Assembly (NCBI GenBank): GCA_029432795.1
Contig: JARNMJ010000006.1
Coordinates: forward strand, 62,001 to 126,000
Direction: 5' to 3'
Length of the DNA: 64,000 nt
Origin: Pontiellaceae bacterium B12219
Lineage (GTDB): Bacteria; Verrucomicrobiota; Kiritimatiellia; Kiritimatiellales; Pontiellaceae
Positions 105-17,858 of the stretch are shown here, in pieces. Within the stretch, counting starts at the first letter, position 1; the number at the start of each line of letters is the position of its first letter. Below the pieces are notes generated by a model. The model was not told the origin of the DNA, searched no databases, and worked only from the letters and a program-made list of their open reading frames with translations. The translations under genes were made by a program, and so were the position numbers.

Positions 105-590
105 TTATTTCCGGGAGGAGGGGACCACGAGCACATTGCAATGGGCGCGGCGGAGAATGGATTCGGAAACGCTGCCCAAAAGGGCTTTGTGGAAAAGTCC
201 GTGGCCGTGAGAGCCAAGTATGATCATGTCGGCATTTAACTCCTTGGCTTTTTCCACGATCAAGTCTGCGGGTATTCCTTTAAGCAGGAGGGCCTGTGTG
301 TCGAGGCCTTTTTCCCGGAGTCTGGAAGAGATGCCGAGCAGTTCGCGGTGTTCGCGTTTGATTTCTTCTGCGCTGATATCGCGGGTAAGCTGAATGTCGC
401 CGGGCATGGTGATGGTTTCGGGAGCATAGCCGGTGAATTGGGTGGTTTCGAATGCCATGGCCTGCATTTCGTCTGCGGTAACGTGCATGATCCATATTTT
501 TGCTTTGAGGGCGGTGGCCAGCTTCACGGCTTCGGTCAGGACGGCATCGGTGGATTTCGAAAAGTCGACTGCAACAAGCAGGTTATTCAT
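105..590 (-). CDS. Universal stress protein (UspA family)
   Basis: This is a 161-aa single-domain cytoplasmic Usp. It starts MNNLLVAVDFSKS, typical of the first beta strand and the Asp that contacts nucleotide. Near the C-terminus GSHGHGLFHKALLGSVS fits the G-x2-G-x9-G-S ATP-binding signature, so it is probably an ATP-binding Usp. A strong AAGGAGG ribosome site precedes the ATG. It is the last gene of a minus-strand series, 62 bp after the HTH gene, so it may be part of the output of the sensor kinases upstream. The family role is stress survival; the specific signal is unknown. Confidence 0.9.
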   Translation of the reverse strand: MNNLLVAVDFSKSTDAVLTEAVKLATALKAKIWIMHVTADEMQAMAFETTQFTGYAPETITMPGDIQLTRDISAEEIKREHRELLGISSRLREKGLDTQALLLKGIPADLIVEKAKELNADMIILGSHGHGLFHKALLGSVSESILRRAHCNVLVVPSSRK

Positions 591-652: not shown

Positions 653-862
653 TTAGCGTTGTTTCTGAGCCGGCTGAATGCCGAGTTTGTCCATACGATA
701 GCGTAGAATGCGGCGGGTGGTGCCGAGGTGCTGTGCCGCGCGGGTCTGGACGCCGTTGCATTTTTCCAGGGCCTGGATGATCAGCCGGCGTTCAAAGTTG
801 CCGACGGCTTCTTCGAGAATGATCGGGTTTTCCAAGGGTTGGAACTTTTCGGATTGATTCAC
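653..862 (-). CDS. Orphan Fis-type helix-turn-helix protein
   Basis: This 69-aa protein is little more than a Fis/NtrC C-terminal HTH (HTH_8). The segment around LIIQALEKCNGVQTRAAQHL and the following RRILRYRMDKLGI matches the DNA-binding end of sigma-54 activators, but there is no receiver or AAA+ domain. It starts with GTG and overlaps the stop of the kinase gene before it by 4 bases, so it is translationally coupled. The N-terminus contains FQPLE, encoded by one copy of the repeated palindrome (830-844). It is likely the DNA-binding partner of the adjacent kinases, or a Fis-like architectural protein. Confidence 0.8.
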   Translation of the reverse strand: MNQSEKFQPLENPIILEEAVGNFERRLIIQALEKCNGVQTRAAQHLGTTRRILRYRMDKLGIQPAQKQR

Positions 863-2850
863 GACTGTTCCTCCAGAGCGGGAAGAACAATGGATACGGA
901 AGTTCCGCCGGAACTGGTATCGATGTCGATCTGCCCGTTGTGGTCGATGACGGTGCGTTTTGCGATGGGCAATCCGAGGCCGAAGCCCAGCGCTTTGACG
1001 GTGATGAAGGGGGAGTACACTTTGTTTCGCAAAGGTTCTTCAATTCCGCTGCCGTTGTCGGTGACCATGATGTAGATGCTTCCGAGTTCTTTATCCGGGG
1101 AACGCCCTTTGACGGAAATGTTTATCCGTGAACCGGGTTTATTGGCCAGATTTTCGGCGGAGTTTTTGATCAGGTGATAAATGCACTCTTCGAGGGAGGC
1201 GGCATCGCCATTCACAAGCAGGTTGGTGTCGTCGGCGGATAAATGGATTTTAAGGTTTTCGTGTGCGAGCTCATTCTGAATTCGGGTGACGGCAAATTCG
1301 ATCGGTTTGCGAACGTCTATCGGGTGGAGAATGGGTTTCGGCGGATTCGCAAATTCGTTGATTTTGTCGATTATCTGGTTCAGGCGGTCAACTTCGAGGG
1401 TGACCTGCTCGCTGAACTCGGCGCGGAAGTCGGGATCTTCGAACCGTTTCGGCAACAGTTGTGAGAAGGTTTTAATGGCAACGAGCGGGTTGCGTATTTC
1501 GTGGCTCATGCTGGATGCGAGCTCATTCCAGAAGGCAGCACGTTCGACCTGTTCTTCTTTTTCCTGCAGCAGTTTCGCCCCGGTAATATCCCGCAGCATC
1601 ATCATGGCGCCGACGCATTGATTGTTATCGGTGAGGCAGCGGACTTCCGCGGACAGCGTCAGTTTTGTACGGGAATCGGTCCATTCGCGCTCTTTCAGGA
1701 CGGTCTGGCTCTCAACCGTTCTTCTGAAAAGGTCGGCAATGCGGCTTCCAAGCACTTCAACCCGTTCGCCAATAACGGTGGCTTCCTGTGGTTGGAGAAT
1801 TTCGCGGGCGGTGGAGTTGAACCAGCGGACTGTGGCATTTTCATCGCAGGCGATGATGCCGAAGGGAATCGAGTGGAGTACAGTTTCCGCAAGCGCTTTC
1901 TGCAGGGCCGTTTCTTCGTATTGAAATGCTTTTTCGAGGGTGGTGGAGATGTGGTCGGCGAGGCCGGTCAGGTCTTCAAGGTCGGCGACATCGAACGGAA
2001 TGCCGGTGGAGCGTTGGCCGACAAAAATCCAGCCTTTGATCGAACCGCTGGCATAGAGCGGAATAATGATTTCCGCACCGAGGGAATCGAGCATCTGTTT
2101 GAGCATGGCGCGTTCCTGCGGATCGACAATGTTTTCAAGGGTTTTACGGGAAATGAGGTGGGTGTTCATTTCCAGCCATTGAACGAATGTATTTCCGGGT
2201 TGAATGGTCAGCTTCTCGGTGGCCGAGAGGCAGCGGGTTCCCGCCTGAAAAATATAGTCGGAGTGCGGGTTCTGCTGAATGAAAATCCCGGCGCGGGAAA
2301 CGCGGGCGGTGGCAACCAGTCCTTCAACGACGCTTTCGAAGAGCAGCTCGACATTGTCGAAATTACGCTGTGCTTTTGAAAAGTTCTGCAGGGGGGCGGA
2401 AAACAGGGTTCGGGGTTCAGGGCGGTAATCTGTTTTCCGCGCATTCAGGGTTTGGAGTTCTTCCTGAAGAATCCGGTTGCGTTGCCGCAGTCCGAGACAT
2501 TCGACGGCCTGTTTCAGCAGAGCCTGGAATTCGCGGTGATCGGGTTCGAGCGAGCAGGCGGCATAGGGCTCGAGCATTTCTGCGGCGAGCATGGGATCGG
2601 AACGTTCCGTGCCCAGCACAATGATGACGGTGCCAGGGCGTTCCCGGTTGAGGGTGGAGATGACGTCCAGGCAGTTGGGTGCCCGTAGATCGGCCAATAG
2701 AACGGTGTCGCCAAAATAAGTTAATGATTGTTCCAGGTCTGCGTATTGGGCAACGGGTTTCACAGCCGCGATTGAAGCGGAAATGCGAGTTAACCGGGAT
2801 GTTAGTTCTTCATCGCGGGAGTAAAGCAGACTGGAGGGGAGTGTTCTCAT
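859..2850 (-). CDS. Sensor histidine kinase with N-terminal receiver-like, GAF and PAS domains
   Basis: The protein is 663 aa, soluble, with no membrane segment seen. Residues about 1-120 resemble a receiver fold (ADLRAP around Asp54) but lack clear Thr/Lys switch motifs. A GAF-like domain covers about 160-310 and a PAS domain about 320-425. HisKA has SSMSHEIRNPL with the phosphoacceptor His450, and HATPase_c shows DNGSGI and GFGLGLPIAKR. Its ATG overlaps the stop of the preceding kinase (ATGA), and its own stop overlaps the HTH gene. It lacks a dedicated full response regulator nearby, unless the orphan HTH protein or the hybrid at 8042 serves. Signal unknown. Confidence 0.88.
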   Translation of the reverse strand: MRTLPSSLLYSRDEELTSRLTRISASIAAVKPVAQYADLEQSLTYFGDTVLLADLRAPNCLDVISTLNRERPGTVIIVLGTERSDPMLAAEMLEPYAACSLEPDHREFQALLKQAVECLGLRQRNRILQEELQTLNARKTDYRPEPRTLFSAPLQNFSKAQRNFDNVELLFESVVEGLVATARVSRAGIFIQQNPHSDYIFQAGTRCLSATEKLTIQPGNTFVQWLEMNTHLISRKTLENIVDPQERAMLKQMLDSLGAEIIIPLYASGSIKGWIFVGQRSTGIPFDVADLEDLTGLADHISTTLEKAFQYEETALQKALAETVLHSIPFGIIACDENATVRWFNSTAREILQPQEATVIGERVEVLGSRIADLFRRTVESQTVLKEREWTDSRTKLTLSAEVRCLTDNNQCVGAMMMLRDITGAKLLQEKEEQVERAAFWNELASSMSHEIRNPLVAIKTFSQLLPKRFEDPDFRAEFSEQVTLEVDRLNQIIDKINEFANPPKPILHPIDVRKPIEFAVTRIQNELAHENLKIHLSADDTNLLVNGDAASLEECIYHLIKNSAENLANKPGSRINISVKGRSPDKELGSIYIMVTDNGSGIEEPLRNKVYSPFITVKALGFGLGLPIAKRTVIDHNGQIDIDTSSGGTSVSIVLPALEEQS

Positions 2851-5366
2851 GATTTAACTCCATGTTCCAGCAATGGGATGTAAAGGTAGAACGAGGTGCC
2901 GCGCCCGGGTTGACTTTCTACTTCTATGACTCCGTGGTGTTCGGTGATGATTCCGTGGGCGACAGACAGCCCCATGCCGGTACCTTCGCTTTTATTGGTG
3001 TAGAATGGATCAAATATTTTCTGGAGATTTTCCCGTTCAATGCCTTTTCCGGTGTCCGAAATCTGAATTCGGATACATTTGCGGGTGATCGCCTTTTCGG
3101 GCGAGTCTCCGTTGGCAAAACGGTGTGTGCAATTGAGGGTGCCAACCGTGATGGTGCCGCTTTCCGCGATGGATTCAATGGCGTTCAGGTTAAGGTTGAT
3201 TAATGCCTGAGAGAGCAGTTTGGCATCTCCGAAGATTTCGGTGTGTTCAGCGCGGCATTTGTTCTGCAGTTGAATATTCTTCTGGGCCAGCTGTTCGTGA
3301 ATCAATTTAAGAGCCTGGTCGATGGTTTCTTGAACATTCATCGGAATCAGATGAGGCTGAGCAGGTTTTGAAAAGCTCAGCAGTTCATTTACGATTCCGT
3401 CAATGCGGTCAACCTCGTGCGCAACTAATGAGGCAAAATCATTTCGGAAATCATCATCGGCATACCGCTTTGGAAGTAATTGCGTGAAGGTTTTAATGGT
3501 TACCAATGGGTTTTTTATTTCATGTGCCATGCCGGCCGCCAATGTGCCGACGCTGGAAAGTTGGTCGGTCCGGCGCACCTGTTCTTCGAGACTTTTAAAT
3601 TCGGTTATATCAGTGAAAACGAGGAGGGCACCCATTGGTTTTCCATCATGGCCGTAAAGAAAGGCGGATCCCATTCGGATATGTTTGGGGCTTGTTTCTG
3701 AATCTTCATCCGGCAGAAGCGTTGCATCAATATTCTTAATACCCTGCTGGTTTTCCAGTGTGACCGTTAATGCCAGATGAATTTCCCGGGGAAGAACCTC
3801 AATGCTCTGGCCCACGGCCGTGCTTTCTTTAAGACCGGTAATGCGCTGCGCCTCATGATTGAATAACGTAACCTCGCGTTCCGGGTTGGCCACAACAATC
3901 CCGCTGACCATTTGATCGAGCATGATTTCATTCTGAATCTTGCTGTCCTGCATTTTGGTGTACAGCTCTGCATTCTCCAGGGCAACTGAAAACTGATTGC
4001 ACAGGATCTGCAGGGCGTCCTGTTCGGTTTTATCGTATATTTTTCCCTTTTTTCGCGCCCCAAATAATACGATTCCTCTAATCTTAGATTTAGTAAAAAT
4101 ACCAGTAGCAATGGTTACGTTATCTTTTTGTAGTTGGTCGATTATATCTTTATTGAACTGAGTTTGCCGCATTCGGACTAAGCTATCAATACTCGTGGGT
4201 TCATGTGTTTTTTCTAAAATTTGTACTAATGGGTCAGTATGGGAATACTTAAGACTTTTAGTCGAAGTTCCTGAGGAATATGACTCTGAGAATTTGGATG
4301 AATCCGCTGTTAGTATTGTAACATTTTCAGCATTTAAGGTTTCTTCTAAGAGGGCGGAAAATTGTGACATAAGAGCATCAATGGTTGTTACAGATTGAAA
4401 AATTTCATCGGCCTTTCTTACGGTTGCTTTAATGTCAAACACCCCGGATGTTCCAAATAGTATTTCTGTGGCCTTAAACATTCTCTGCCGTACGGGTAGC
4501 ATTGCAAAAGCTACTACCAATGTGGTGAGAAGATGAGGTGGTAATTCTGAAGGAATGGCCATTAATCTGCAAAGGTAAGTTGCAGATGATAAAGTGATGT
4601 AATAAATGGTGCTTAAGATAAAAATTAGAAGGGTATATGCAAATATCTTTCTCAGTAAAAAGGAAACAGTTAGTATTTTGTGCACGGAGATTCCGTAAGC
4701 AACAATGCCCGATACTGTCAGTACACTGGCAGCGTTTGCGATTGGAACAGAATTAGCAGATTGAGTAATAAGCCCAAAAATAGTACCCAGAAAGATGCCG
4801 ACAATTAATCCTGAAAGGCTGGCAAAGATAAGAAAGTCTAATTCAAGCCGCTTACTGCCTGTTAAGCGCTTCCTGTCATAGTAGACATTTAAAGCAAGAA
4901 TTAAGATGGAGCCCAGCATGTAAAATAAAAATATTATAAATGGGGCTCCATAGTCTGGTTTAGCCAAATTGATGGATGTCTGTGATTCTGAAAAGTCTAC
5001 TGAGTCGGTAAATCCAGGAATAAAGCAAACAGCTATTGCAATGGCATTGAATGCAATCTGTTTTCTGTTCTTGTAAACTAGTTTATGAAAACTATCGGAA
5101 GGGAAAGTAATGGCTAAGCGCAACAATTGGAAGGATGTCGGGAGGCAAGCCGACAAAGCTGACGCAATATTTATATTAGTTATGGCTTCAGACTCTGTTG
5201 TTGAATGTAGGATCAGCAGGTTCGCGCATAACCACAAAAACATGAAAGTGGAAGATATTAAAAATGCTTGATTCGCTTTACGATGTCGGTTCGTAAAATA
5301 TACGGTTATTCCTAGGCCGATATTTGCTGTTAAAGCAAATAATATGATTGCTGATAAAAGAATCAT
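2847..5366 (-). CDS. Membrane histidine kinase with 7TM-type sensor, GAF and PAS domains
   Basis: This 839-aa kinase begins with a multi-pass region (about residues 1-270, at least seven hydrophobic segments) resembling the N-terminal 7TM sensor of histidine kinases. A GAF-like region follows (320-470), then PAS (480-590). HisKA has AAGMAHEIKNPL with His615, and the ATPase has DTGKGI and GTGMGLSVAHGI. Its kinase core is a close paralogue of the next gene (compare TIKTFTQLLPKRYADDDF with AIKTFSQLLPKRFEDPDF). It lies 1 bp downstream of the ketosynthase. The 5' two-thirds is visibly more AT-rich than the kinase core. Confidence 0.9.
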   Translation of the reverse strand: MILLSAIILFALTANIGLGITVYFTNRHRKANQAFLISSTFMFLWLCANLLILHSTTESEAITNINIASALSACLPTSFQLLRLAITFPSDSFHKLVYKNRKQIAFNAIAIAVCFIPGFTDSVDFSESQTSINLAKPDYGAPFIIFLFYMLGSILILALNVYYDRKRLTGSKRLELDFLIFASLSGLIVGIFLGTIFGLITQSANSVPIANAASVLTVSGIVAYGISVHKILTVSFLLRKIFAYTLLIFILSTIYYITLSSATYLCRLMAIPSELPPHLLTTLVVAFAMLPVRQRMFKATEILFGTSGVFDIKATVRKADEIFQSVTTIDALMSQFSALLEETLNAENVTILTADSSKFSESYSSGTSTKSLKYSHTDPLVQILEKTHEPTSIDSLVRMRQTQFNKDIIDQLQKDNVTIATGIFTKSKIRGIVLFGARKKGKIYDKTEQDALQILCNQFSVALENAELYTKMQDSKIQNEIMLDQMVSGIVVANPEREVTLFNHEAQRITGLKESTAVGQSIEVLPREIHLALTVTLENQQGIKNIDATLLPDEDSETSPKHIRMGSAFLYGHDGKPMGALLVFTDITEFKSLEEQVRRTDQLSSVGTLAAGMAHEIKNPLVTIKTFTQLLPKRYADDDFRNDFASLVAHEVDRIDGIVNELLSFSKPAQPHLIPMNVQETIDQALKLIHEQLAQKNIQLQNKCRAEHTEIFGDAKLLSQALINLNLNAIESIAESGTITVGTLNCTHRFANGDSPEKAITRKCIRIQISDTGKGIERENLQKIFDPFYTNKSEGTGMGLSVAHGIITEHHGVIEVESQPGRGTSFYLYIPLLEHGVKS

Positions 5367-5367
5367 T

Positions 5368-6600
5368 TCAGGGGAATTTCTTTAGTAATAATGAGCTGTT
5401 TACGCCACCAGTTCCATGGCTGTTGATTAGGGTATAGTTTGTATTGTTCATCAGGTTGTTTTTGGTAACGAAGTTTAAATCACAAGACGGATCCGGGGAG
5501 GTATAATTCGTGATATGAGGGATGGTTCCGTTTAAAAGAGTCATTGCCGCTGCGATTGTCTGTATTGGGCCTCCGGCAGATAATGGATTTCCTGTTGCTC
5601 CTTTTACTGAAGTAACAGATATTTGATCGGTTGAATTTTTAAAAACTGCCCTTATCGCTCTTGTTTCGGCTATATCTAAATGGATGTCGCTGGAGCCATG
5701 AGCGTTAATGTGATCAATTTCTGATGGCATAATTCCGGCATTGCTTAGAGCTTGGTTCATGGCACTTTCCAGCCCAGTAGATGGCGAGCTGTTGACATTA
5801 TTCGCTGATCCATACCCAATGATTTCGGCATAAGGTGTTGCGCCTCGAACCAAAGCATGTTCTAGAGATTCTAGAACTAGCATGCCGGATCCTTCAGAGA
5901 TTATTCCTCCAGACCGTTTAAGGTCAAAAGGTCGGCTTACTGTTGAGGGGTGATCATTCTCTGTGGACAACATCCCTGCGTAGCCTAGTCCTGTTACAAC
6001 GGAGGGAATGATTACTGCATCGGTACCGCCGGCGAGTGCAACGTCGTGTACTCCCTTGCGTATTAATTCTGCTGCATCGGCGATCGCATCTAAACCGCCG
6101 GCACAGCTATTTGATATGACATTGATACGGGTTTCTACTCCGAGTATGCTACTAATGAAACTTGGTGCAATTACATGTACGCAAGCGGAAACGGTTGGCA
6201 GCCCTTTCGTTATGCCTCGTTCAATTAACCGTCTTGTATGCTGTTCGACTAAATCGAGGCCTCCAAGGCTTATACCAACAACAATAGGAAGGGGCTGGGT
6301 TCGCGATAGTCTAGCGCGGTCTAGGTCTGCATCAGTTAATGCAAGCTGAGTGGCAGCTGCTGCTATTTGGGTGTTTCTGCTTTGCCGCTTGGGTTTAAAG
6401 TGTTTCTCGATGTACTGTTCGGGTACAAAATCAGGGATTTCACCAGCGATTCTCCATGGCAATTCACTTGCGTCGAATTGTGTGATTGGTCCAATGCCCG
6501 ATTCGCCGGCGAGGAGGGAGTTCCAGAAGGCATCTTTCCCGATTCCATTGGCGGCGAGAACGCCCACTCCAGTGATGACTACTCTGTTTCTTCCGAACAC
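5368..6600 (-). CDS. FabF-like beta-ketoacyl-ACP synthase with Cys-His-Asn active site
   Basis: The 410-aa protein has the KAS I/II thiolase fold: ITGVGVLAANGIGKDAFW at the start, the nucleophile region NSCAGGLDAI (Cys166), NAHGSSD (His301) and a C-terminal NSHGTGG. The second active-site histidine of FabF (in KSxxGH) is replaced: here SVKGATGNPLSAGG puts Asn338 in its place, giving a Cys-His-Asn set as in KAS III. It starts with GTG. It probably condenses or transfers an acyl group rather than acting as the housekeeping FabF. It heads the operon with the two kinases, which is unusual for a fatty-acid enzyme. Confidence 0.85.
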   Translation of the reverse strand: MFGRNRVVITGVGVLAANGIGKDAFWNSLLAGESGIGPITQFDASELPWRIAGEIPDFVPEQYIEKHFKPKRQSRNTQIAAAATQLALTDADLDRARLSRTQPLPIVVGISLGGLDLVEQHTRRLIERGITKGLPTVSACVHVIAPSFISSILGVETRINVISNSCAGGLDAIADAAELIRKGVHDVALAGGTDAVIIPSVVTGLGYAGMLSTENDHPSTVSRPFDLKRSGGIISEGSGMLVLESLEHALVRGATPYAEIIGYGSANNVNSSPSTGLESAMNQALSNAGIMPSEIDHINAHGSSDIHLDIAETRAIRAVFKNSTDQISVTSVKGATGNPLSAGGPIQTIAAAMTLLNGTIPHITNYTSPDPSCDLNFVTKNNLMNNTNYTLINSHGTGGVNSSLLLKKFP

Positions 6601-6713: not shown

Positions 6714-6840
6714 CTAAATATCAATATGTTGTATATATCAAGAATTATTGCACAACCTGTAGGTAAAAAACTTACTGACGACTGGCATATCAATTGCTAC
6801 ATTTTGCGGCTTAGTTATATTCAATATTAAGAGGGGCAGA

Positions 6841-8037
6841 ATGAATACAAATTTTAAACAACTCCCAATGCTGTTGGGTGCAGGATTGGTGTTGGCGCAG
6901 GCCGCAGTTGGAGATGGCTATCGCAACCCGCCCCCTACAGCAGAAGGAATTGCTAAATCCGGAGTAAACTCAGTTTGGGTGAATGATGCGTCGGCCATCT
7001 CCTATAACCCGGCCAACCTGGCCTTTCAAACGAATAAATCGGTGGTTATTTCTACAACATTTGCTCAGACAGATAATACGTACTTCCCTGCGCCGGCAAC
7101 TTCGTTTGATTCTTCCGGAGATTGGAATGTGCTCCCCAATATCTATTATTCGCAGCCCATTGGGGACAAGGGGCTTTCAGTGGGATTAGGGATTACCACT
7201 CCATACGGGCAGGGTTTGGCCTGGAATGAATCCGATTTTGAAAAGCTAATCGCAGGACCGAAACCCGTGATTTATGAAGCAAGTGTAATGATGTTGGACT
7301 TTAATCCGACGGTTGCATTCAAGGTGAACGATTATCTTTCTATTGGGGTCGGTGTAGATATTTATTATTCAACGCTTGAATTAGACGCGGTTGGTGCCTC
7401 GGGCGCTCCTCCTGCACCGCTATATAATGCGACCGGAGAGGGGGATGCCTTTGGTTTGGGTGCAAATATAGGTATTACCTGGTTGCCGACGGAGGCTCAA
7501 CGCGTGGCATTAACCTATCGCAGCGAGGTTGAAATGGAATATAAAGGGGATTTTTCGTCACCCCTTCCAAACAATGGAAATTTTGAAACATCCCTCCAGT
7601 ATCCGAATATCGTCGGATTAGGTTATGGCGTGCAGTTTGCTGAAAAGTTTAAAATCGAGGCCTTGGCGGAATGGTTGCAATGGTCGTTGAATGAAAGCCA
7701 AAGCGTAGATGCCGGTGGAACCCCACTGAATGCACCGAACAACTGGGATGATACCTTCACGTTTGGGATCGGCGGAAGCTGGGATATTACCGATTCCTTT
7801 GTTTTGCGCGCCGGTTATGCCTATTTGCCGTCTCCGATTCCATCGTCAACGTTGACACCTTTGTTGCCTGATGCAGATCGTCAGGCTCTCAGTTTCGGAC
7901 TTGGCTATACGTTTGGTATGAGCCGACTTGATGTTGCATACACGTACAGTATTTATGATGAGTTGGCAGATCAAAAAGGTGGGACTTATGATATTGATTC
8001 CAACCTGATCGGTCTGTCATACTCGACTTCATTTTAG
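6841..8037 (+). CDS. FadL/OMPP1/TodX-like outer-membrane transport protein
   Basis: This is a 398-aa predicted outer-membrane barrel with an N-terminal signal peptide (MNTNFKQLPMLLGAGLVLAQ, cleavage probably after AQAA). The mature start contains NDASAISYNPANLA, typical of the FadL hatch region, followed by alternating amphipathic strands and a C-terminal SYSTSF ending in Phe. The family imports long-chain fatty acids or hydrophobic compounds. A GAGGGG site precedes the ATG. It stops 4 bp before the receiver-kinase gene and is divergent from the ketosynthase, which supports a lipid or hydrophobic substrate theme. Confidence 0.85.
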   Translation: MNTNFKQLPMLLGAGLVLAQAAVGDGYRNPPPTAEGIAKSGVNSVWVNDASAISYNPANLAFQTNKSVVISTTFAQTDNTYFPAPATSFDSSGDWNVLPNIYYSQPIGDKGLSVGLGITTPYGQGLAWNESDFEKLIAGPKPVIYEASVMMLDFNPTVAFKVNDYLSIGVGVDIYYSTLELDAVGASGAPPAPLYNATGEGDAFGLGANIGITWLPTEAQRVALTYRSEVEMEYKGDFSSPLPNNGNFETSLQYPNIVGLGYGVQFAEKFKIEALAEWLQWSLNESQSVDAGGTPLNAPNNWDDTFTFGIGGSWDITDSFVLRAGYAYLPSPIPSSTLTPLLPDADRQALSFGLGYTFGMSRLDVAYTYSIYDELADQKGGTYDIDSNLIGLSYSTSF

Positions 8038-8041
8038 GGGA

Positions 8042-9238
8042 ATGCCTATGATTGCTGAAACGACAGAAAAGTTGGGAAGAGTTCTGGTAATCGACGATGA
8101 GCGCGGACCGCGCGAAAGTCTCCGCATGGTTCTGAAGTACGATTATGAAATCCTGTTGGCCGATCGGGTAGATGCCGGAATTCATCTGCTTCGGGAAAAT
8201 GAGCCCGACCTGATTATCATGGATATTCGCATGCCCGAAAAAAGCGGAATTGAAGGGCTTCAGGAAATTCGTGAAATCAATCAATCCGTATCCATCGTCA
8301 TGCTGACCGGTTATGGCGATCTTGAAACCGCCCAGCAGGCCATCCGTTTCGGAGCCAATGATTATCTCCAAAAACCATTTGATACTGATGATATTCAGGA
8401 AGTGGTCAAAAAATATGTTGATCGCACCCGCCTGCATTCCCGTAAAAAACAGGCGCAGGAAGAGTTGAATAAAATGACGCAGTCGCTCAGTCGCGAAGTG
8501 GGCAAAACCAATAAGCTGACTTCGCTTGGGGCGGCCTCTTCGGAGCTGGTTCGTGATCTGCGAAATCCGCTAACAATCATTCGCGGATATCTCGATTTGC
8601 TGAACTATGAGTTAAAGGAAAAGCAGGAATCGACTTCGGAAGAAATGAATGAATATCTGGGGCAGATTGAGCGCAATGTTGAACGCTGCGCCGAGCTGGT
8701 GGAATCCTGGCGGGCTCTGGGGCGTTTCGACTTTTCGCAAATGCAGCGCCTGAATCTTCCGAAACTGATGAACGATTGCTTTCGGGATGCCGCAGCGCAC
8801 TCGGATATCGCATTTTCCATTCAGGTGGATGGTATTGAAGACCAGTATGAAATGCTGGGCGAACGGTTACAGGTGAAACGGGCGCTGCAGAATCTGATTG
8901 ATAATGCGGTTACGGCGCTGGACCGTCAGTCCTCGCCCTGTATTACAGTCCTCTTCACCATGTCCAACACCGATATTCACGTGAAGGTGAAAGACAACGG
9001 TTGCGGTATTGATACGCAGCGGCTGCGCTGGATTTTTGAGCCCTTTGATAGTACCGCCACCATCGATAAGGGAGCTGGTCTGGGATTGTTCATCACGAAA
9101 AAGGTGATTGAGGAACACCGGGGCTCTTTGCAGTTTGAAAGTCGGGTTGGCGAGGGATCGGTTGCAACGCTGCACATTCCTCAGGCCCATACGGCATTAG
9201 GTTATTTTTCGAGTCCTGAATCGCTTGTAGGGGCCTGA
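8042..9238 (+). CDS. Response regulator-histidine kinase hybrid lacking the H-box histidine
   Basis: This is a 398-aa cytoplasmic protein. The N-terminal receiver (about 12-125) is complete: IDDE acidic pair, phosphoacceptor Asp61 in MDIRMP, Thr88 and Lys111 in QKPFD. A short linker leads to a HisKA-like helix, but the H-box reads LVRDLRNPL, with Arg171 where His is expected. The HATPase_c domain is intact (DNAVTALD, DNGCGI, GAGLGLFITKKVIEEHRG). It may be a receiver-controlled ATPase or pseudokinase that modulates another kinase rather than autophosphorylating. It is 4 bp downstream of the FadL gene and 8 bp upstream of the FAD oxidoreductase. Confidence 0.85.
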   Translation: MPMIAETTEKLGRVLVIDDERGPRESLRMVLKYDYEILLADRVDAGIHLLRENEPDLIIMDIRMPEKSGIEGLQEIREINQSVSIVMLTGYGDLETAQQAIRFGANDYLQKPFDTDDIQEVVKKYVDRTRLHSRKKQAQEELNKMTQSLSREVGKTNKLTSLGAASSELVRDLRNPLTIIRGYLDLLNYELKEKQESTSEEMNEYLGQIERNVERCAELVESWRALGRFDFSQMQRLNLPKLMNDCFRDAAAHSDIAFSIQVDGIEDQYEMLGERLQVKRALQNLIDNAVTALDRQSSPCITVLFTMSNTDIHVKVKDNGCGIDTQRLRWIFEPFDSTATIDKGAGLGLFITKKVIEEHRGSLQFESRVGEGSVATLHIPQAHTALGYFSSPESLVGA

Positions 9239-9246
9239 TCTTTAAA

Positions 9247-10863
9247 ATGAACCATACGCCTGCAGCACTGGCCGCCATCGAAGCTTGGAAGCGGGAGGTC
9301 GGGCCGGAATCAGTTTTTTCCGATTTCCAGACTCTGGAAGAATACACGCAAAGTACGTGCGCCTCGACGCGCGAAATTGTGGCTGTCCTCAAACCGGTTT
9401 CTCTCGAACAGGTACAGCGAATCGTTGCCGTTGCCAATGAGCACCGGATTTCACTTTATCCCATCAGCCAGGGCAAACAATGGGGAATGGGTTCGCGCCT
9501 TCCGGTTCAGGACGGAGCTGCGGTGGTGGATCTTTCCGGAATGAACCGCATTCTGGAAGTCAGCGAACCATTTCATTATGCCGTGGTGGAACCCGGGGTG
9601 ACGCAGCGGCAGCTGATCGAATACCTTCAGGAAAAAAAACTGCCCTTAATGCTCAATGTGACGGGCTCAACCTCCTGCACCAGCCTGATCGGCAATGCCA
9701 TGGATCGGGGGGTGGGCTATTTCGATTCCCGCGCTGACGGCATCTCCAATATGGAAGTGGTGCTCGGCAATGGAGAAACCATTCAAACCGGTTTCGGCCA
9801 TTTTTCCAATGCCCGGACAAAAAATCTATATCCGCATGGCATCGGCCCTTCGCTCGACGGCCTCTTTCAGCAGGGAAATTTCGGGATCGTGACTTCGGCC
9901 TGCGTTGATCTGATGCCGAAGCCCGAAGCGCAGATGTCCGCCATTGTAAAAATTGACGATGAAAATAAATTACCCGGATTAATCGACGCTCTGAAAAAAC
10001 TGCGCGATCGCGGGGTTTATACCACCATTGCGCATATCGGGAACCGCGAGCGTTCGTATATCACATTGGCGCCATTGCTTTATGAACAGTTGGTTTTAGG
10101 TGGTGCTCCAGCAGGAGAAGCCACGCGGAACAAAGCTGTCCAGATGTTGGAGGATGGCGGATTCGGTCCTTGGAGTGCGGCCATCGGGGTGCTCGGGACC
10201 AAGGCCCAGCTTAAACTGGCGAAGCGTGAAATTCATAAAGCGGTCTCAGGATTTTCCAAAACGCTCTTTCTGAACGATGCAACGCTGGAACGGGCCGAAA
10301 AATGGTTGAATACGCTATCTTTCATTCCTGCGTGTAAAAAACAGCTGATGATGCTTAGCGCCATCAAACCGGTGTATGGTTTCACACGTGGCGATACGAC
10401 CGATCAATCGCTGAAATCGGTCTATTGGGCGGCCGGCGACTTCCAACGGCTGGATCACCCGAACCCCGACCATTCTGATAGCGGTATCATGTTCTGCCTC
10501 CCGATTTTTCCAGCCATTGGAAGCATTGTGCTCGACGCGGTGAAAGATACACGCGATACGTTTGCGCGCTATGGTTTCGAGGCGGCCATTACGGTGAACC
10601 TGATGGATGGGAAAGCCATGGAAGGTGTTGTGAGCCTCGCGTTTGATCGACGCAACACGGAGCAGGTCGGCAAAGCACTCGAATGCATCCAGGAAATGGA
10701 GCGTCGCTATATGGAGCAGGGCTTTCCTCCTTATCGCGTTGGTATTAATTCCATGCATCAGGTGGTTCACGAAAATGATTCCTTCTGGCAGACCGTGCAC
10801 AATCTGAAAAAGGCACTCGATCCGAACGGTATCATGGCCCCGGGCCGCTATAATCTCTCCTGA
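9247..10863 (+). CDS. FAD-binding oxidoreductase of the VAO/4-cresol dehydrogenase family
   Basis: The 538-aa protein has an N-terminal PCMH-type FAD-binding domain: QRIVAVANEHRISLYPIS, then GNAMDRGVGYFDSRAD and GPSLDGLFQQGNFGIVTSA, both typical of the vanillyl-alcohol oxidase/4-cresol dehydrogenase group. The C-terminal cap ends in DPNGIMAPGRYNL. Family members oxidise phenolic or hydroxy compounds; the substrate here is unknown. No signal peptide is seen. It follows the hybrid kinase by 8 bp and is about 120 bp before plsY. A palindrome copy (9325-9339) encodes FQTLE. Confidence 0.82.
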   Translation: MNHTPAALAAIEAWKREVGPESVFSDFQTLEEYTQSTCASTREIVAVLKPVSLEQVQRIVAVANEHRISLYPISQGKQWGMGSRLPVQDGAAVVDLSGMNRILEVSEPFHYAVVEPGVTQRQLIEYLQEKKLPLMLNVTGSTSCTSLIGNAMDRGVGYFDSRADGISNMEVVLGNGETIQTGFGHFSNARTKNLYPHGIGPSLDGLFQQGNFGIVTSACVDLMPKPEAQMSAIVKIDDENKLPGLIDALKKLRDRGVYTTIAHIGNRERSYITLAPLLYEQLVLGGAPAGEATRNKAVQMLEDGGFGPWSAAIGVLGTKAQLKLAKREIHKAVSGFSKTLFLNDATLERAEKWLNTLSFIPACKKQLMMLSAIKPVYGFTRGDTTDQSLKSVYWAAGDFQRLDHPNPDHSDSGIMFCLPIFPAIGSIVLDAVKDTRDTFARYGFEAAITVNLMDGKAMEGVVSLAFDRRNTEQVGKALECIQEMERRYMEQGFPPYRVGINSMHQVVHENDSFWQTVHNLKKALDPNGIMAPGRYNLS

Positions 10864-10983
10864 TTTTTACAATCCTTGGGGGTTCTTAGGTATTTTTTCT
10901 GCGTTGAATGAATTGCAGTTGAAAAGCATTTGAATCCTGTTACTGTTTTAACACTATGCCACTACACTAATGGGGAGTGTTAT

Positions 10984-11574
10984 ATGACAGGCAGAGACAT
11001 CATCTGCATTATTATCGCCTATCTGCTGGGGGGAATCTGCACCGGGTATTATCTCATTCGCTTTAAAACCGGGCAGGATATTCGTGAGTTGGGGAGCGGA
11101 GGGGTCGGAGCGCGTAACGTCGGGCGGATTCTCGGTAAACCCGGATTCATAATCACGCTGACGGGGGACGCGCTGAAAGGGAGTATTGCGATTCTGTTGG
11201 CCCGCCAGTTCGCGATTGCCGAGCCTGTTGTTTCGCTGGTGCTTGTGGCGGTCATTGCCGGTCATATCTGGCCGTTGTTTTTGCAGTTTCGGGGTGGCCG
11301 GGGCATTGCAACCGCCATTGGTTCCTATAGTGCATACAGTCCTGAACTGGCACTGATTCTTTTGGTCATCACACTGGGCATGATGATCTTTCGGCGCGGG
11401 TTCATTCTCAGTGGTCTGTCCGCATTTCTTCTGCTGCCTCTGGTGGCCTGGGCTCTTAAATTTCCCGGCTATACGGTGGCTGCGCTTGCGGGGGCATCGG
11501 TCATCATTTTATTTGCTCATCGAGAACGTCTTCGCAAAGCATTTGCAGAGGTTGCACCTCAAGGGGAGGCATAA
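10984..11574 (+). CDS. plsY: Glycerol-3-phosphate acyltransferase PlsY
   Basis: This is a 196-aa, multi-pass inner-membrane protein. It shows the three PlsY motifs: ELGSGGVGARNVGR (glycerol-phosphate/acyl-phosphate site), FRGGRGIATAIG, and a later membrane helix ending in AHRERLRK. PlsY transfers acyl groups from acyl-phosphate to glycerol-3-phosphate, the first step of phospholipid synthesis. I chose the ATG at 10984, preceded by GGGGAG, rather than an in-frame ATG 54 bases upstream that would add an unlikely extension. The next gene begins immediately after the stop codon. No plsX is in the window. Confidence 0.9.
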   Translation: MTGRDIICIIIAYLLGGICTGYYLIRFKTGQDIRELGSGGVGARNVGRILGKPGFIITLTGDALKGSIAILLARQFAIAEPVVSLVLVAVIAGHIWPLFLQFRGGRGIATAIGSYSAYSPELALILLVITLGMMIFRRGFILSGLSAFLLLPLVAWALKFPGYTVAALAGASVIILFAHRERLRKAFAEVAPQGEA

Positions 11575-13197
11575 ATGGGGTTACTGGACGGATTCATCTT
11601 TAAAGTGGCAGACCAGGATTGGGAACTGGAGGCCATTCATGCGCTGAACTATAAAACCTTTGTTGAAGAAATTCCTCAGCATGCGATCAATCAGGAACGA
11701 AGACTGGTGGATAAATTCCACGAACAGAATACGTACATCATCTGTGTGAATGAGGAGACAAAAGAGCTCGCGGGTATGATTGCCTATCGCGACCAGCGCC
11801 CCTTTTCTCTGGATAGTAAACTCGAAAACCTCGATGCCTATCTTCCGGCTGCCCGCAAAATTTGCGAAATCCGGCTGTTGGCTGTGGAGGATGCCTATCG
11901 CTACACCCGAATAACACAGGGGCTGATTGCGTTGCTCACTGAATATGCAGACGGCCAATGCTGCGATATGTTCGTCATTTCCGGAACGGTTCGTCAGATC
12001 AAACTCTATAAATATCTGGGCTTTACTCCATTCGGGCCATTGGTTGGAACCGAAGGCGCAGAATACCAGCCGATGTATGCCTCCATGGAGGCCTATCGGC
12101 ATTTGCAGGATCGCTCCCGGTCATTTGCAAAGAATGCCCCCAAACTGGCAAACGACGATACGGTGCTGTTCAATTTTCTACCGGGACCGGTCGATTTCGC
12201 CCGGCAGGTGCAGGAGGTTTATAAAGAGAAGCCCTGCTCCCACCGTTCCGATCAGTTTATGAAAGATTTCCAGACTGTTCGGAAATTGCTCTGCGATCTC
12301 TCGCAGGCCAGGCAGGTTCAGATTCTGATGGGCCCCGGAACACTCGCCAACGATGCTGTTGCGGGACAGCTTTCATTACTTTGCAGCACCGGCCTCATTT
12401 TAGTGAGCGGTGAATTCGGCCGGCGATTGGCAAAAAATGCCAATGGAGCCAAACTGTTTTTCCATACGTTGGAAATTCCGGAAGGACAGACGTTCCAGCG
12501 TTCGGAAATCGAAAAAGTCCTTAACGACCATCCGGAGATTGACTGGATTTGGGGAACGCATTGCGAAACTTCCACCGGCGTGTTGAACGATATCGAGATG
12601 ATTCAGGAAATCTGCAAGCCGCGAGGCATCAAGGTCTGCCTGGATTGCATCAGTTCGCTCGGCACAGTGCCGGTCGATCTGTCCGGGGTTTATCTGGCTT
12701 CCGGAACCAGTGGAAAAGGGCTGGCTTCCATCTCCGGGCTCAGTATGGTTTTTCATAACCACGATTTTGAACCCGCTCCCGATGATCTGCCCTGCATACT
12801 CGATTTGGGAATCTATCAGGAGCATGACGGCATTCCGTTCACCATCCAGTCGAATCTGGTGTATGCCCTGCTTGCGGCTCTGCAGTCGCATGACTGGCCG
12901 AAACGCTTTGAAGATGTCCGCGATTGGTCGAAAAGTATTCGCCGTAAGCTGGCCGAAATCGATGCGCCGATTCTTGCTCCTGATGCCTGTGCGATGCCTG
13001 CCGTCGTCACCATTGCTCTTCCCGAAATACACTCCTCCATTTCGATCGGAGATGCATTGAAAAACGAAGGTGTACTCATCAGCTACCGCAGTCGTTATCT
13101 GCTCGAACGAAACTGGATTCAGGCCTGTATGATGGGGGCCGAGCATAAACCTGCCGAAAAATTCATCCGGCTGCTGAAAAAGGAATTGGCTCGCTGA
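11575..13197 (+). CDS. GNAT acyltransferase fused to class V aminotransferase
   Basis: The protein is 540 aa with two parts. Residues about 1-185 look like a GNAT N-acyltransferase (EIRLLAVEDAYRYTRITQGL and QIKLYKYLGFTPFG). Residues about 195-540 are a fold-type I, class V PLP aminotransferase: FLPGPV, GTHCETSTGVLND, the cofactor Asp357 in CLDCISSLG, and Lys381 in SGTSGKGLAS for the Schiff base. It resembles serine-pyruvate or aminoethylphosphonate transaminases. The fusion suggests an amine made by transamination is then N-acylated, or the reverse. It begins right after the plsY stop and ends 5 bp from a convergent gene. The product is unknown. Confidence 0.8.
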   Translation: MGLLDGFIFKVADQDWELEAIHALNYKTFVEEIPQHAINQERRLVDKFHEQNTYIICVNEETKELAGMIAYRDQRPFSLDSKLENLDAYLPAARKICEIRLLAVEDAYRYTRITQGLIALLTEYADGQCCDMFVISGTVRQIKLYKYLGFTPFGPLVGTEGAEYQPMYASMEAYRHLQDRSRSFAKNAPKLANDDTVLFNFLPGPVDFARQVQEVYKEKPCSHRSDQFMKDFQTVRKLLCDLSQARQVQILMGPGTLANDAVAGQLSLLCSTGLILVSGEFGRRLAKNANGAKLFFHTLEIPEGQTFQRSEIEKVLNDHPEIDWIWGTHCETSTGVLNDIEMIQEICKPRGIKVCLDCISSLGTVPVDLSGVYLASGTSGKGLASISGLSMVFHNHDFEPAPDDLPCILDLGIYQEHDGIPFTIQSNLVYALLAALQSHDWPKRFEDVRDWSKSIRRKLAEIDAPILAPDACAMPAVVTIALPEIHSSISIGDALKNEGVLISYRSRYLLERNWIQACMMGAEHKPAEKFIRLLKKELAR

Positions 13198-13692: not shown

Positions 13693-14793
13693 TTAAGCGG
13701 AAGTCGGCCGATCGCCGACCCACTTGCGCATCTCGTCTTTGGTGGTTTTCCAATCGTTGGATTCGTTGCGTTCTTTGGCGAACTCGCTGAAAAGGTGGAA
13801 GAAGGCCTGGCGGAATGTTTCGAGAAAAACCATACGCTCCTGGAATTTTCCCACCCGGTCGAACGTTTCGGTTTGCGGAAGTTTCAGGCTTCGGAAAATG
13901 AATTCATCGGCATCGAAGGTGAAGGCCCACACCTCCTCGCCGCGCACAAACTGCACTTTGGCCTTCTTCAGCTTTTTACCGCTGATCAACGCCGTTCGGG
14001 CCTCGGCGCTGAGCATTGGTTCGCCTTTGCGCAAGGTGATTTCATGTGCACCTTTTCCTTCCATCACAAAGGTCAGCGGACCTTCAACCATATAGGCAAT
14101 TTCTCCAACGTCCGGAATGTTGGAAATACCGCCGCGTTTTTCGGAGCAGTACCAGAGCCACATCAGAAATTCGCGTCCAGCAGTTCCATCCACCATACCG
14201 TCTTCTATTTCATCGGAGAAGCTGCACGGGCCCCAGTTTTGTACATTGATTCCGGAATCCTTGGCGGCAATTGTTTCCGGATCAGCCGGCGTTGCGCTGC
14301 AACCGGTGGTCTGCATCAGGCTCAGCACGAATGCATCCACCTGTTTTTCAGAAGTGGCCGACGCGTAAATCATATGTGAGCGTTCGTCGAAGACAAAGTC
14401 GATGCCCTTGAGCTGCGGCGGCATATCCGGGAGGAGACGCTCCTTGACCTGTTTTTTGATTTCCGAGCGCATCTGCTGATTCAGATAGTTTTTGTCTTCG
14501 GCTTCCATCACCGCCATTTCCTCCACCGCGCATTCCGCCTGAAGCAGGGAAGAAGGCACGGTCTTTTTGGCCTGCGTCAAGGTCAGACGAAGGTAGCCGC
14601 CGAGAAAGGCGTTTTCTTCGGTAATGTTGCGGTCGAGCAAATGGCGGCCCGCCACCCAGCCGTGGACTTCCTCTTCAACCAGTGTATTCAGTGGAGGCAG
14701 GGCTGCCGCCGAAAATTTTTCGATATCTTCAACGCCCAGATCGCGTCCGGCGAAATACATACGAAAACTCAGTGAACCTTTTTCAAAACCCAT
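13693..14793 (-). CDS. RdgC-like recombination-associated protein
   Basis: This 366-aa protein resembles RdgC, a ring-shaped DNA-binding protein that limits RecA and affects replication restart. The helical stretch around residues 95-125 (SEIKKQVKERLLPDMPPQL) corresponds to the KKxxLLPR region of RdgC, and GREFLMWLWYCSEK is found in non-proteobacterial RdgC-like proteins. It is longer than the roughly 300-aa E. coli protein. An AAGGA site precedes the ATG. A one-mismatch palindrome copy lies at 13748-13762. Recognition is by motif memory, so the family call is moderate. Confidence 0.6.
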   Translation of the reverse strand: MGFEKGSLSFRMYFAGRDLGVEDIEKFSAAALPPLNTLVEEEVHGWVAGRHLLDRNITEENAFLGGYLRLTLTQAKKTVPSSLLQAECAVEEMAVMEAEDKNYLNQQMRSEIKKQVKERLLPDMPPQLKGIDFVFDERSHMIYASATSEKQVDAFVLSLMQTTGCSATPADPETIAAKDSGINVQNWGPCSFSDEIEDGMVDGTAGREFLMWLWYCSEKRGGISNIPDVGEIAYMVEGPLTFVMEGKGAHEITLRKGEPMLSAEARTALISGKKLKKAKVQFVRGEEVWAFTFDADEFIFRSLKLPQTETFDRVGKFQERMVFLETFRQAFFHLFSEFAKERNESNDWKTTKDEMRKWVGDRPTSA

Positions 14794-16814: not shown

Positions 16815-17858
16815 TTAGATCATGAACCGACGACGTAAAAATAAGACCGCGCCGCCAAATACAGCCACCAGGCCCAATGTAGCCGGCTCCGGAATCACGT
16901 AGGTTGCGGTCAGCAAACCGTTGGCTCCGGAATTATCAACATTAAAGCTCCAGCCGATGCCGTCACCTTCAGAAGAATCAACACCGACAGCAAGCTCCAG
17001 GCCCTGATCATCAATATCGCCGTTTTCAAGTTCCATCAGCGTCCAGGTTCCTTCAGTGGCTTCCGTTCCGTAGAAGGATAAGTCCAAAACAGAACCGTCC
17101 GCGAAATAAGCATACGGATCAGCAGTGGCCTGATCGGTATCATCGATCAAAATAGTCGATACTCCCGCCGCGCCGATTCCCATGCTGAGCACTCCACCGG
17201 CATCCTGCCACCAGTGGCCATCGAGAGTTCCTGACGATCCAATCCCAATCGTTGCGTCATTACCCTGAACCTGGAATGTTCCTCTGTCACCGACTTCAAC
17301 GCCGATTCGAGTGACCAATGATCCGCCCGTGATATTCATGAGTCCGGTTCCATTCCCCCATCCGATGGAGAGCGAACCACCCGCATTACCACCGAATGTG
17401 TTGGGATTTCCGGTCAGTGTATTGCCTCCGCGAGAGATATCCAGCGTACCTCCACTTAGATTGTAGATCCCGGTGCCATGTCTGCCGACGGCAAGAATAT
17501 GGCCGATATTATAGTTTCCGCCAGATTGATTGACAGTTCCTGCGCCGGTATTCCCAATAAAGTTCCGGGTGGTATTGCCCGACTGGTTGTCACTGTGCGT
17601 GCCTCCTGTGATATTCAATGTAGCACCACCATCAACAAACGTTCGCGATACAGTGACATCTGTGTCACGGGTAACAGTGAATGCTCCATCGATTTCCCGC
17701 GTACTGCCGGCGAATGCATTGGTGGAAGGATCCCAGTTGAGGGCATCTTCGAAGCTGATCCCGTCCCCTGCACCATTCCATACATCCGCATTCGCAATGC
17801 CTGCTGATCCCATGGTCAAGGCCATGGCGATTAGTAGATTTTTATTAACGAACTGCAT
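16815..17858 (-). CDS. PEP-CTERM surface protein with autotransporter-type repeats
   Basis: This 347-aa exported protein has a signal peptide (MQFVNKNLLIAMALTMGSAG) and a low-complexity, Gly/Asn/Thr-rich body. The repeated pattern G-T-x-N-x-S-G-G-x (for example GTVNQSGGNYNIG and GTGIYNLSGGTLDISRGG) is typical of beta-helical autotransporter-associated repeats. The C-terminus carries a PEP-CTERM sorting signal: IPEPATLG, a hydrophobic helix, then RRRFMI. It would be anchored or processed by an exosortase, which is not in this window. An AAGGAGA site precedes the ATG and a strong terminator follows. Ligand unknown. Confidence 0.88.
   Translation of the reverse strand: MQFVNKNLLIAMALTMGSAGIANADVWNGAGDGISFEDALNWDPSTNAFAGSTREIDGAFTVTRDTDVTVSRTFVDGGATLNITGGTHSDNQSGNTTRNFIGNTGAGTVNQSGGNYNIGHILAVGRHGTGIYNLSGGTLDISRGGNTLTGNPNTFGGNAGGSLSIGWGNGTGLMNITGGSLVTRIGVEVGDRGTFQVQGNDATIGIGSSGTLDGHWWQDAGGVLSMGIGAAGVSTILIDDTDQATADPYAYFADGSVLDLSFYGTEATEGTWTLMELENGDIDDQGLELAVGVDSSEGDGIGWSFNVDNSGANGLLTATYVIPEPATLGLVAVFGGAVLFLRRRFMI

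Follow-up and report, generated by a model that had tools for sequence, protein, structure and literature searches.

The window, a 64-kb stretch of DNA, carries on its minus strand a gene for a ketosynthase-fold protein and, after it, genes for two histidine kinases, whereas a FadL-family channel gene and its operon are divergent from them on the plus strand (Table 1). The ketosynthase reading frame is open throughout its 410 codons, and the plus strand across the same interval is crowded with stop codons. The first kinase gene starts 1 nt past the ketosynthase stop codon and the two kinase genes overlap by 4 nt. Searching the PDB by structure with the 7TM region of the first kinase gave no informative match, and only its GAF domain was matched. 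From a Rokubacteria homologue we infer that the second kinase may additionally carry a GAF domain and an N-terminal pseudo-receiver.

Table 1. Features of the ketosynthase locus and of adjacent DNA, with positions counted in the window.
Feature	Position	Strand	Basis and remarks
Universal stress protein	105..590	minus	268 nt after the kinases; relatives often have one in the same place
Second histidine kinase, 663 aa (PAS, HisKA/HATPase)	859..2850	minus	Pfam; synteny
Sensor histidine kinase, 839 aa (7TM region, GAF, PAS, HisKA, HATPase)	2847..5366	minus	Pfam; GAF from structure
Ketosynthase-fold protein, 410 aa	5368..6600	minus	GTG start at 6600; Pfam, AlphaFold2, PDB match
Predicted sigma-54 (-24/-12) promoter, TGGCATATCAATTGCT	6783..6798	plus	42 nt ahead of the FadL start codon
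FadL/OmpP1/TodX-family outer-membrane channel	6841..8037	plus	PF03349, E 7.6e-55; divergent from the ketosynthase
Receiver-HisKA-HATPase hybrid	8042..9238	plus	4 nt past FadL; Pfam, synteny
FAD-dependent oxidase, vanillyl-alcohol oxidase (VAO)/p-cresol methylhydroxylase family	9247..10863	plus	Pfam
PlsY-like gene	10930-11574	plus	Pfam; FadL-side operon
Fusion of FeeM/GNAT-like N-acyltransferase and 2-aminoethylphosphonate-type aminotransferase	11575-13197	plus	Directly after the PlsY-like gene
RdgC-like protein	13693-14793	minus	Weak PF04381 match; stays beside the cluster in close relatives
TonB-dependent-receptor-like barrel, 558 aa	14839-16515	minus	PF00593; shorter than most such receptors
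Protein with C-terminal PEP-CTERM-type sorting signal VIPEPATLGLVAVFGGAVLFLRRRFMI	16815-17858	minus	No Pfam match

Fold and active site of the ketosynthase

Ketosynthases are annotated as builders of lipids or polyketides. The protein encoded here matches PF00109 and PF02801, which places it in the KAS I/II type and not in the FabH type, and its AlphaFold2 model (pLDDT 92.8) has B. subtilis FabF as its closest PDB match (TM 0.95). Its score against TIGR03150, the FabF equivalog, is 346.9 bits and thus below the cut-off of 493.75 bits. PF00109 occurs in just two proteins of the genome, the window protein and, on a different contig, an ordinary Cys-His-His FabF, and no second ketosynthase lies beside the gene in the 64-kb window. 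The retained Cys and the lack of an adjoining ketosynthase in the window also separate the protein from chain-length factors (KS-beta).

The active-site positions are occupied by Cys166, His301, Ser303, Asp305, Lys333, Asn338, Gln347, His395, and Thr397, with the motifs NSCAGG, NAHGS, and KGATGNP around Cys166, His301, and Asn338. In phmmer alignments with FabF of B. subtilis and T. thermophilus, Asn338 takes the place of the GH-motif His, and the surrounding alignment is ungapped. The earlier note had described a KAS I/II fold in which Cys166 and His301 are kept and GH has become GN, and the motifs, the alignment, and the Pfam domains agree with this description. The note gave neither the strand nor the further altered active-site positions, and it did not mention His395. 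Because GN is shared by orthologues from other genomes at 67–47% identity, it is not a chance error.

The protein resembles FabF/KAS II in fold, in the nucleophilic Cys, in the Lys (FabF Lys335), in the Asp and Glu framework, and in one catalytic His. It differs from FabF (FabF numbers) by His340 to Asn, Thr305 to Ser, Thr307 to Asp, Glu349 to Gln, Phe398 to His, and the gating Phe400 to Thr, so that only the first of the two catalytic His (His303 and His340) is kept, HGSSD replaces the HGTxT motif, and HGTGG replaces the GFGG gate. The FabF threonines after the first His touch the pantetheine arm, and the loss of both makes canonical ACP use doubtful. A published active-site table for FabB and FabF lists eight residues (FabB numbers Cys163, His298, Thr300, Thr302, Lys328, His333, Glu342, and Phe392; PMC2649909), for which the window protein has Cys, His, Ser, Asp, Lys, Asn, Gln, and Thr, that is, three of eight kept and five altered (T to S, T to D, H to N, E to Q, and F to T). 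The same paper describes His298 and His333 of FabB as both essential to malonyl decarboxylation (PMC2649909). FabF Phe398 sits immediately ahead of the GFGG gating loop (described in PMC7138838), and the aligned His395 is a conserved new His in this gating-loop region, which might conceivably supply the active site with a His from a different part of the chain.

A kinase-linked family in three phyla

Relatives were compared in a joint sample of 78 kinase-linked family members and 27 FabF rows, in which the Rokubacteria and Desulfobacterota members were chosen by resemblance to kinase-linked sequences and the counts describe a sample, not a census. The 27 FabF rows make up a single clade of the joint tree (SH-aLRT 100), and all 78 kinase-linked rows fall outside it. 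A branch with an SH-aLRT of 98 sets the 52 Kiritimatiellota members off from the housekeeping FabFs that their genomes also encode. A search of Nitrospirota returned ordinary FabF among the inspected top matches, with no gap in the scores; one of these has a FadL gene nearby. In Omnitrophota, a Cys-His-His ketosynthase stands in tandem with a partner lacking Cys and His (L017:3383-5841), resembling a ketosynthase/chain-length-factor pair.

The nucleophilic Cys is invariant in the kinase-linked family (78/78), as is Asp309 (78/78), and Lys or Arg occupies position 333 in 77 of 78. Both catalytic His, by comparison, are retained in only seven of the 78 members. At the second His position the family has N in 40, Q in 18, H in 12, C in four, S in three, and A in one. 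Thr occurs at 303 in two members and at 305 in four, versus 27 of 27 FabF rows; position 347 (FabF Glu349) is Gln in 71 and position 395 (FabF Phe398) is His in 63 of the 78. All 52 Kiritimatiellota members keep the Cys and none has both catalytic His, the pairs at 301/338 being H/N, H/C, H/S, N/H, D/H, N/N, and Y/N. In the Kiritimatiellota subclade whose residue 301 is Asn or Asp, position 338 is mostly His. In one subclade of six (L118, L120, L122, L189, L119, and L121) the first catalytic His has become Asn, and in four of the six the second position is His, as though the two residues of the pair had been exchanged.

Position 338 changes state at least nine times on the tree. Cys-His-Asn is therefore ruled out as a clade marker, and Asn338 does not define a clade, a point that the earlier note had put up for checking. 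The proposal that Cys-His-Asn is a functional set as in KAS III is not supported, because the second His is replaced also by Q, C, S, and A and one subclade lacks the first. Likeness to KAS III/FabH extends to the three letters in the window protein alone; this protein has no FabH-type Pfam domains, its PF00109 and PF02801 matches rule out KAS III membership, and the family does not keep the Asn. Judged from the aligned sequences, the family has in common a kept Cys and loosened constraint at the His positions rather than a triad like that of KAS III.

Loci were taken as testable for kinase linkage if their sequence continued downstream for 1.2 kb or more. In 71 of 72 such loci, the next gene on the same strand encodes a 7TM-GAF(-PAS) histidine kinase (Kiritimatiellota clade 48/48, Rokubacteria 16/16, and Desulfobacterota 7/8), against none of 19 FabF loci. 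Stable linkage of a synthase gene to a membrane sensor kinase and a regulator is expected of a quorum-sensing pair, and these loci show it, with the kinase next in 71 of 72 and regulators often further on. Together with the separate ordinary FabF in the genome, this bears out the view that the window protein is dedicated, non-housekeeping, and tied to sensor kinases.

Across many families the ketosynthase gene is followed in order by the 7TM kinase, a second kinase, and in many cases a response regulator, and the opposite strand carries FadL and a receiver-kinase hybrid. The response regulators of relatives are of the REC-sigma54-HTH_8 or REC-HTH_8 type and often follow the kinases. In Rokubacteria, the order is ketosynthase, 7TM kinase (directly after the ketosynthase in the match L046), often a second 7TM kinase, a receiver-GAF-PAS kinase, and a receiver protein, and Desulfobacterota carry comparable loci. 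Two Desulfobacterota loci, L290 and L288, have an NAD-dependent epimerase/3-beta-HSD-like gene near the ketosynthase, and L290 has a FadL gene too. The smallest unit conserved over the three phyla is ketosynthase, kinase, and regulator. No other biosynthetic gene is conserved with the ketosynthase across these phyla, and no ACP, reductase, or dehydratase gene was seen to travel with it across the family. Such a conserved neighbourhood shows functional linkage of the encoded proteins and not the direction of information flow.

The FadL operon and its predicted sigma-54 promoter

The sequence TGGCATATCAATTGCT ahead of FadL is the sole exact match to TGGCAYN5TTGCW in the 64-kb window, where 0.3 would be expected by chance. 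Sigma-54 sites scoring at least 13/15 in the FadL-side orientation were found in 27 of 50 Kiritimatiellota-clade loci, versus 2.3 expected from shuffles, and many of them have an ATG no more than 60 nt away. On the ketosynthase side, the case for a sigma-54 promoter is unconvincing (five sites versus 2.4 expected), and no excess of sites appeared in Rokubacteria or Desulfobacterota loci. The genome of the window has rpoN in two copies and encodes at least 12 strong sigma-54 activators, and no sigma-54 response regulator adjoins the window's own ketosynthase locus.

FadL is divergent from the ketosynthase in 37 of 45 testable Kiritimatiellota-clade loci, is absent as a divergent neighbour from the Rokubacteria loci, and is nearby in only some Desulfobacterota loci. 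The VAO-family oxidase gene belongs to the same operon in several families. Conservation of the PlsY-like gene and the GNAT/aminotransferase fusion at the ketosynthase locus is limited to the window's genus or family. The presence of FadL and the VAO-family flavoprotein suggests a hydrophobic, or aromatic, ligand. In Sinorhizobium, FadL takes up long-chain AHL signals (PMC9938287).

Possible roles of the ketosynthase in a two-component module

The locus pattern points to a putative lipid-based signalling module, so far undescribed, in at least three bacterial phyla. We consider the chances about even that a ketosynthase without elongation acts here as an acyl-responsive receptor or ligand maker in a new class of two-component system that feeds sigma-54 transcription. 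As to its role, we slightly prefer a ligand synthase over an acyl sensor. Our leading candidate, held tentatively and at somewhat below an even chance, is that the FabF-fold protein was recruited as the first component of the two-component module and makes a hydrophobic ligand. Cys166 would take an acyl group and either pass it on or condense it without malonate decarboxylation, for which the protein lacks the required His pair. The hydrophobic ligand so formed may be read by the 7TM/GAF kinase, and a phosphorelay to a sigma-54 activator would then switch on the FadL operon. Against this reading weigh the patchy occurrence of FadL in the Rokubacteria and Desulfobacterota loci, the lack of an adjoining sigma-54 response regulator in the window, and the doubt over canonical ACP use.

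A cytoplasmic sensor of acyl status or of a hydrophobic ligand, that is, a pseudo-enzyme with no product, is a somewhat less probable but serious alternative. In this case the protein, with an acyl group bound at Cys166 or with a ligand imported by FadL, would touch the 7TM kinase directly and so alter its activity. In a protein that retains its fold and its Cys, drift of the catalytic His (the second to N, Q, C, S, or A, the first to N, D, or Y) favours binding and is as compatible with a binding protein as with an enzyme; the altered gating and pantetheine-side residues, the restriction of the unit conserved over three phyla to ketosynthase, kinase, and regulator, and the hydrophobic or aromatic ligand to which FadL and the oxidase point are likewise consistent with sensing. 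The invariant Cys within its framework of Asp, Glu, and Lys, however, favours covalent chemistry. We know of no ketosynthase-fold sensor, and none was found in the literature searched.

Alternatively, the protein could be an ordinary enzyme of condensation or acyl transfer, dedicated to a lipid that ends up in the membrane or the wall or is secreted, with the kinases doing no more than regulating its gene. We regard this as unlikely. The PlsY-like acyltransferase and the FeeM-like GNAT/aminotransferase fusion encoded opposite would fit such a pathway, but they accompany the ketosynthase in the window's family only; the seven members with both His and the epimerase/3-beta-HSD-like genes of some Desulfobacterota loci also speak for it, whereas the lack of a family-wide ACP, reductase, or dehydratase speaks against it. 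Moreover, a regulator would seldom be tied to one enzyme gene over three phyla unless the encoded protein took part in the circuit. It is highly improbable that the gene is a housekeeping FabF variant, a decaying paralogue, or a sequencing artefact, even though FabF is the nearest characterised family. The genome has its separate FabF, the score falls well short of the FabF cut-off, and the gene is intact and syntenic across dozens of genomes, so that the comparative data refute a housekeeping or artefactual origin, and synteny and the invariant Cys rule out decay.

If the signalling role is correct, many database genes labelled fabF would encode parts of signalling circuits, each the fixed partner of a single type of 7TM sensor kinase, in which lipid metabolism or a hydrophobic ligand is converted into sigma-54-dependent transcription. 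They would then offer a lead to a new signal derived from lipid, or to a sensor of acyl state, in phyla that have received little study. We found no description of a ketosynthase tied to a 7TM kinase in the open-access literature.

CqsA-CqsS, LqsA-LqsS, and RpfF-RpfC are quorum systems composed of a synthase and a sensor kinase. As at the window locus, the gene for an enzyme of lipid-metabolism type is paired in them with a receptor or regulator; unlike it, they employ other enzyme folds. The ketosynthase-like PpyS makes the photopyrone signals of Photorhabdus, and PpyS-PluR similarly joins a lipid-metabolism-type enzyme gene to a receptor or regulator but differs in its LuxR receptor (PMC4235431). 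The tenuazonic acid synthetase TAS1 has a KAS I/II-type, Cys-His-Asn ketosynthase domain that cyclises instead of elongating; unlike the window protein, it is a domain of a fungal NRPS hybrid, keeps the Asn among its homologues, and has no kinase link (PMC4640141). Signal synthases resembling ketosynthases and Cys-His-Asn ketosynthases are thus known separately. The window family differs from FabF itself in falling below the curated cut-off and in its hard linkage to a kinase. Divergent FabF paralogues of anammox planctomycetes have also lost His, Thr, and Glu positions of the FabF fold, but in these the Cys is lost too, and they are located in fatty-acid or ladderane-candidate clusters (PMC2649909).
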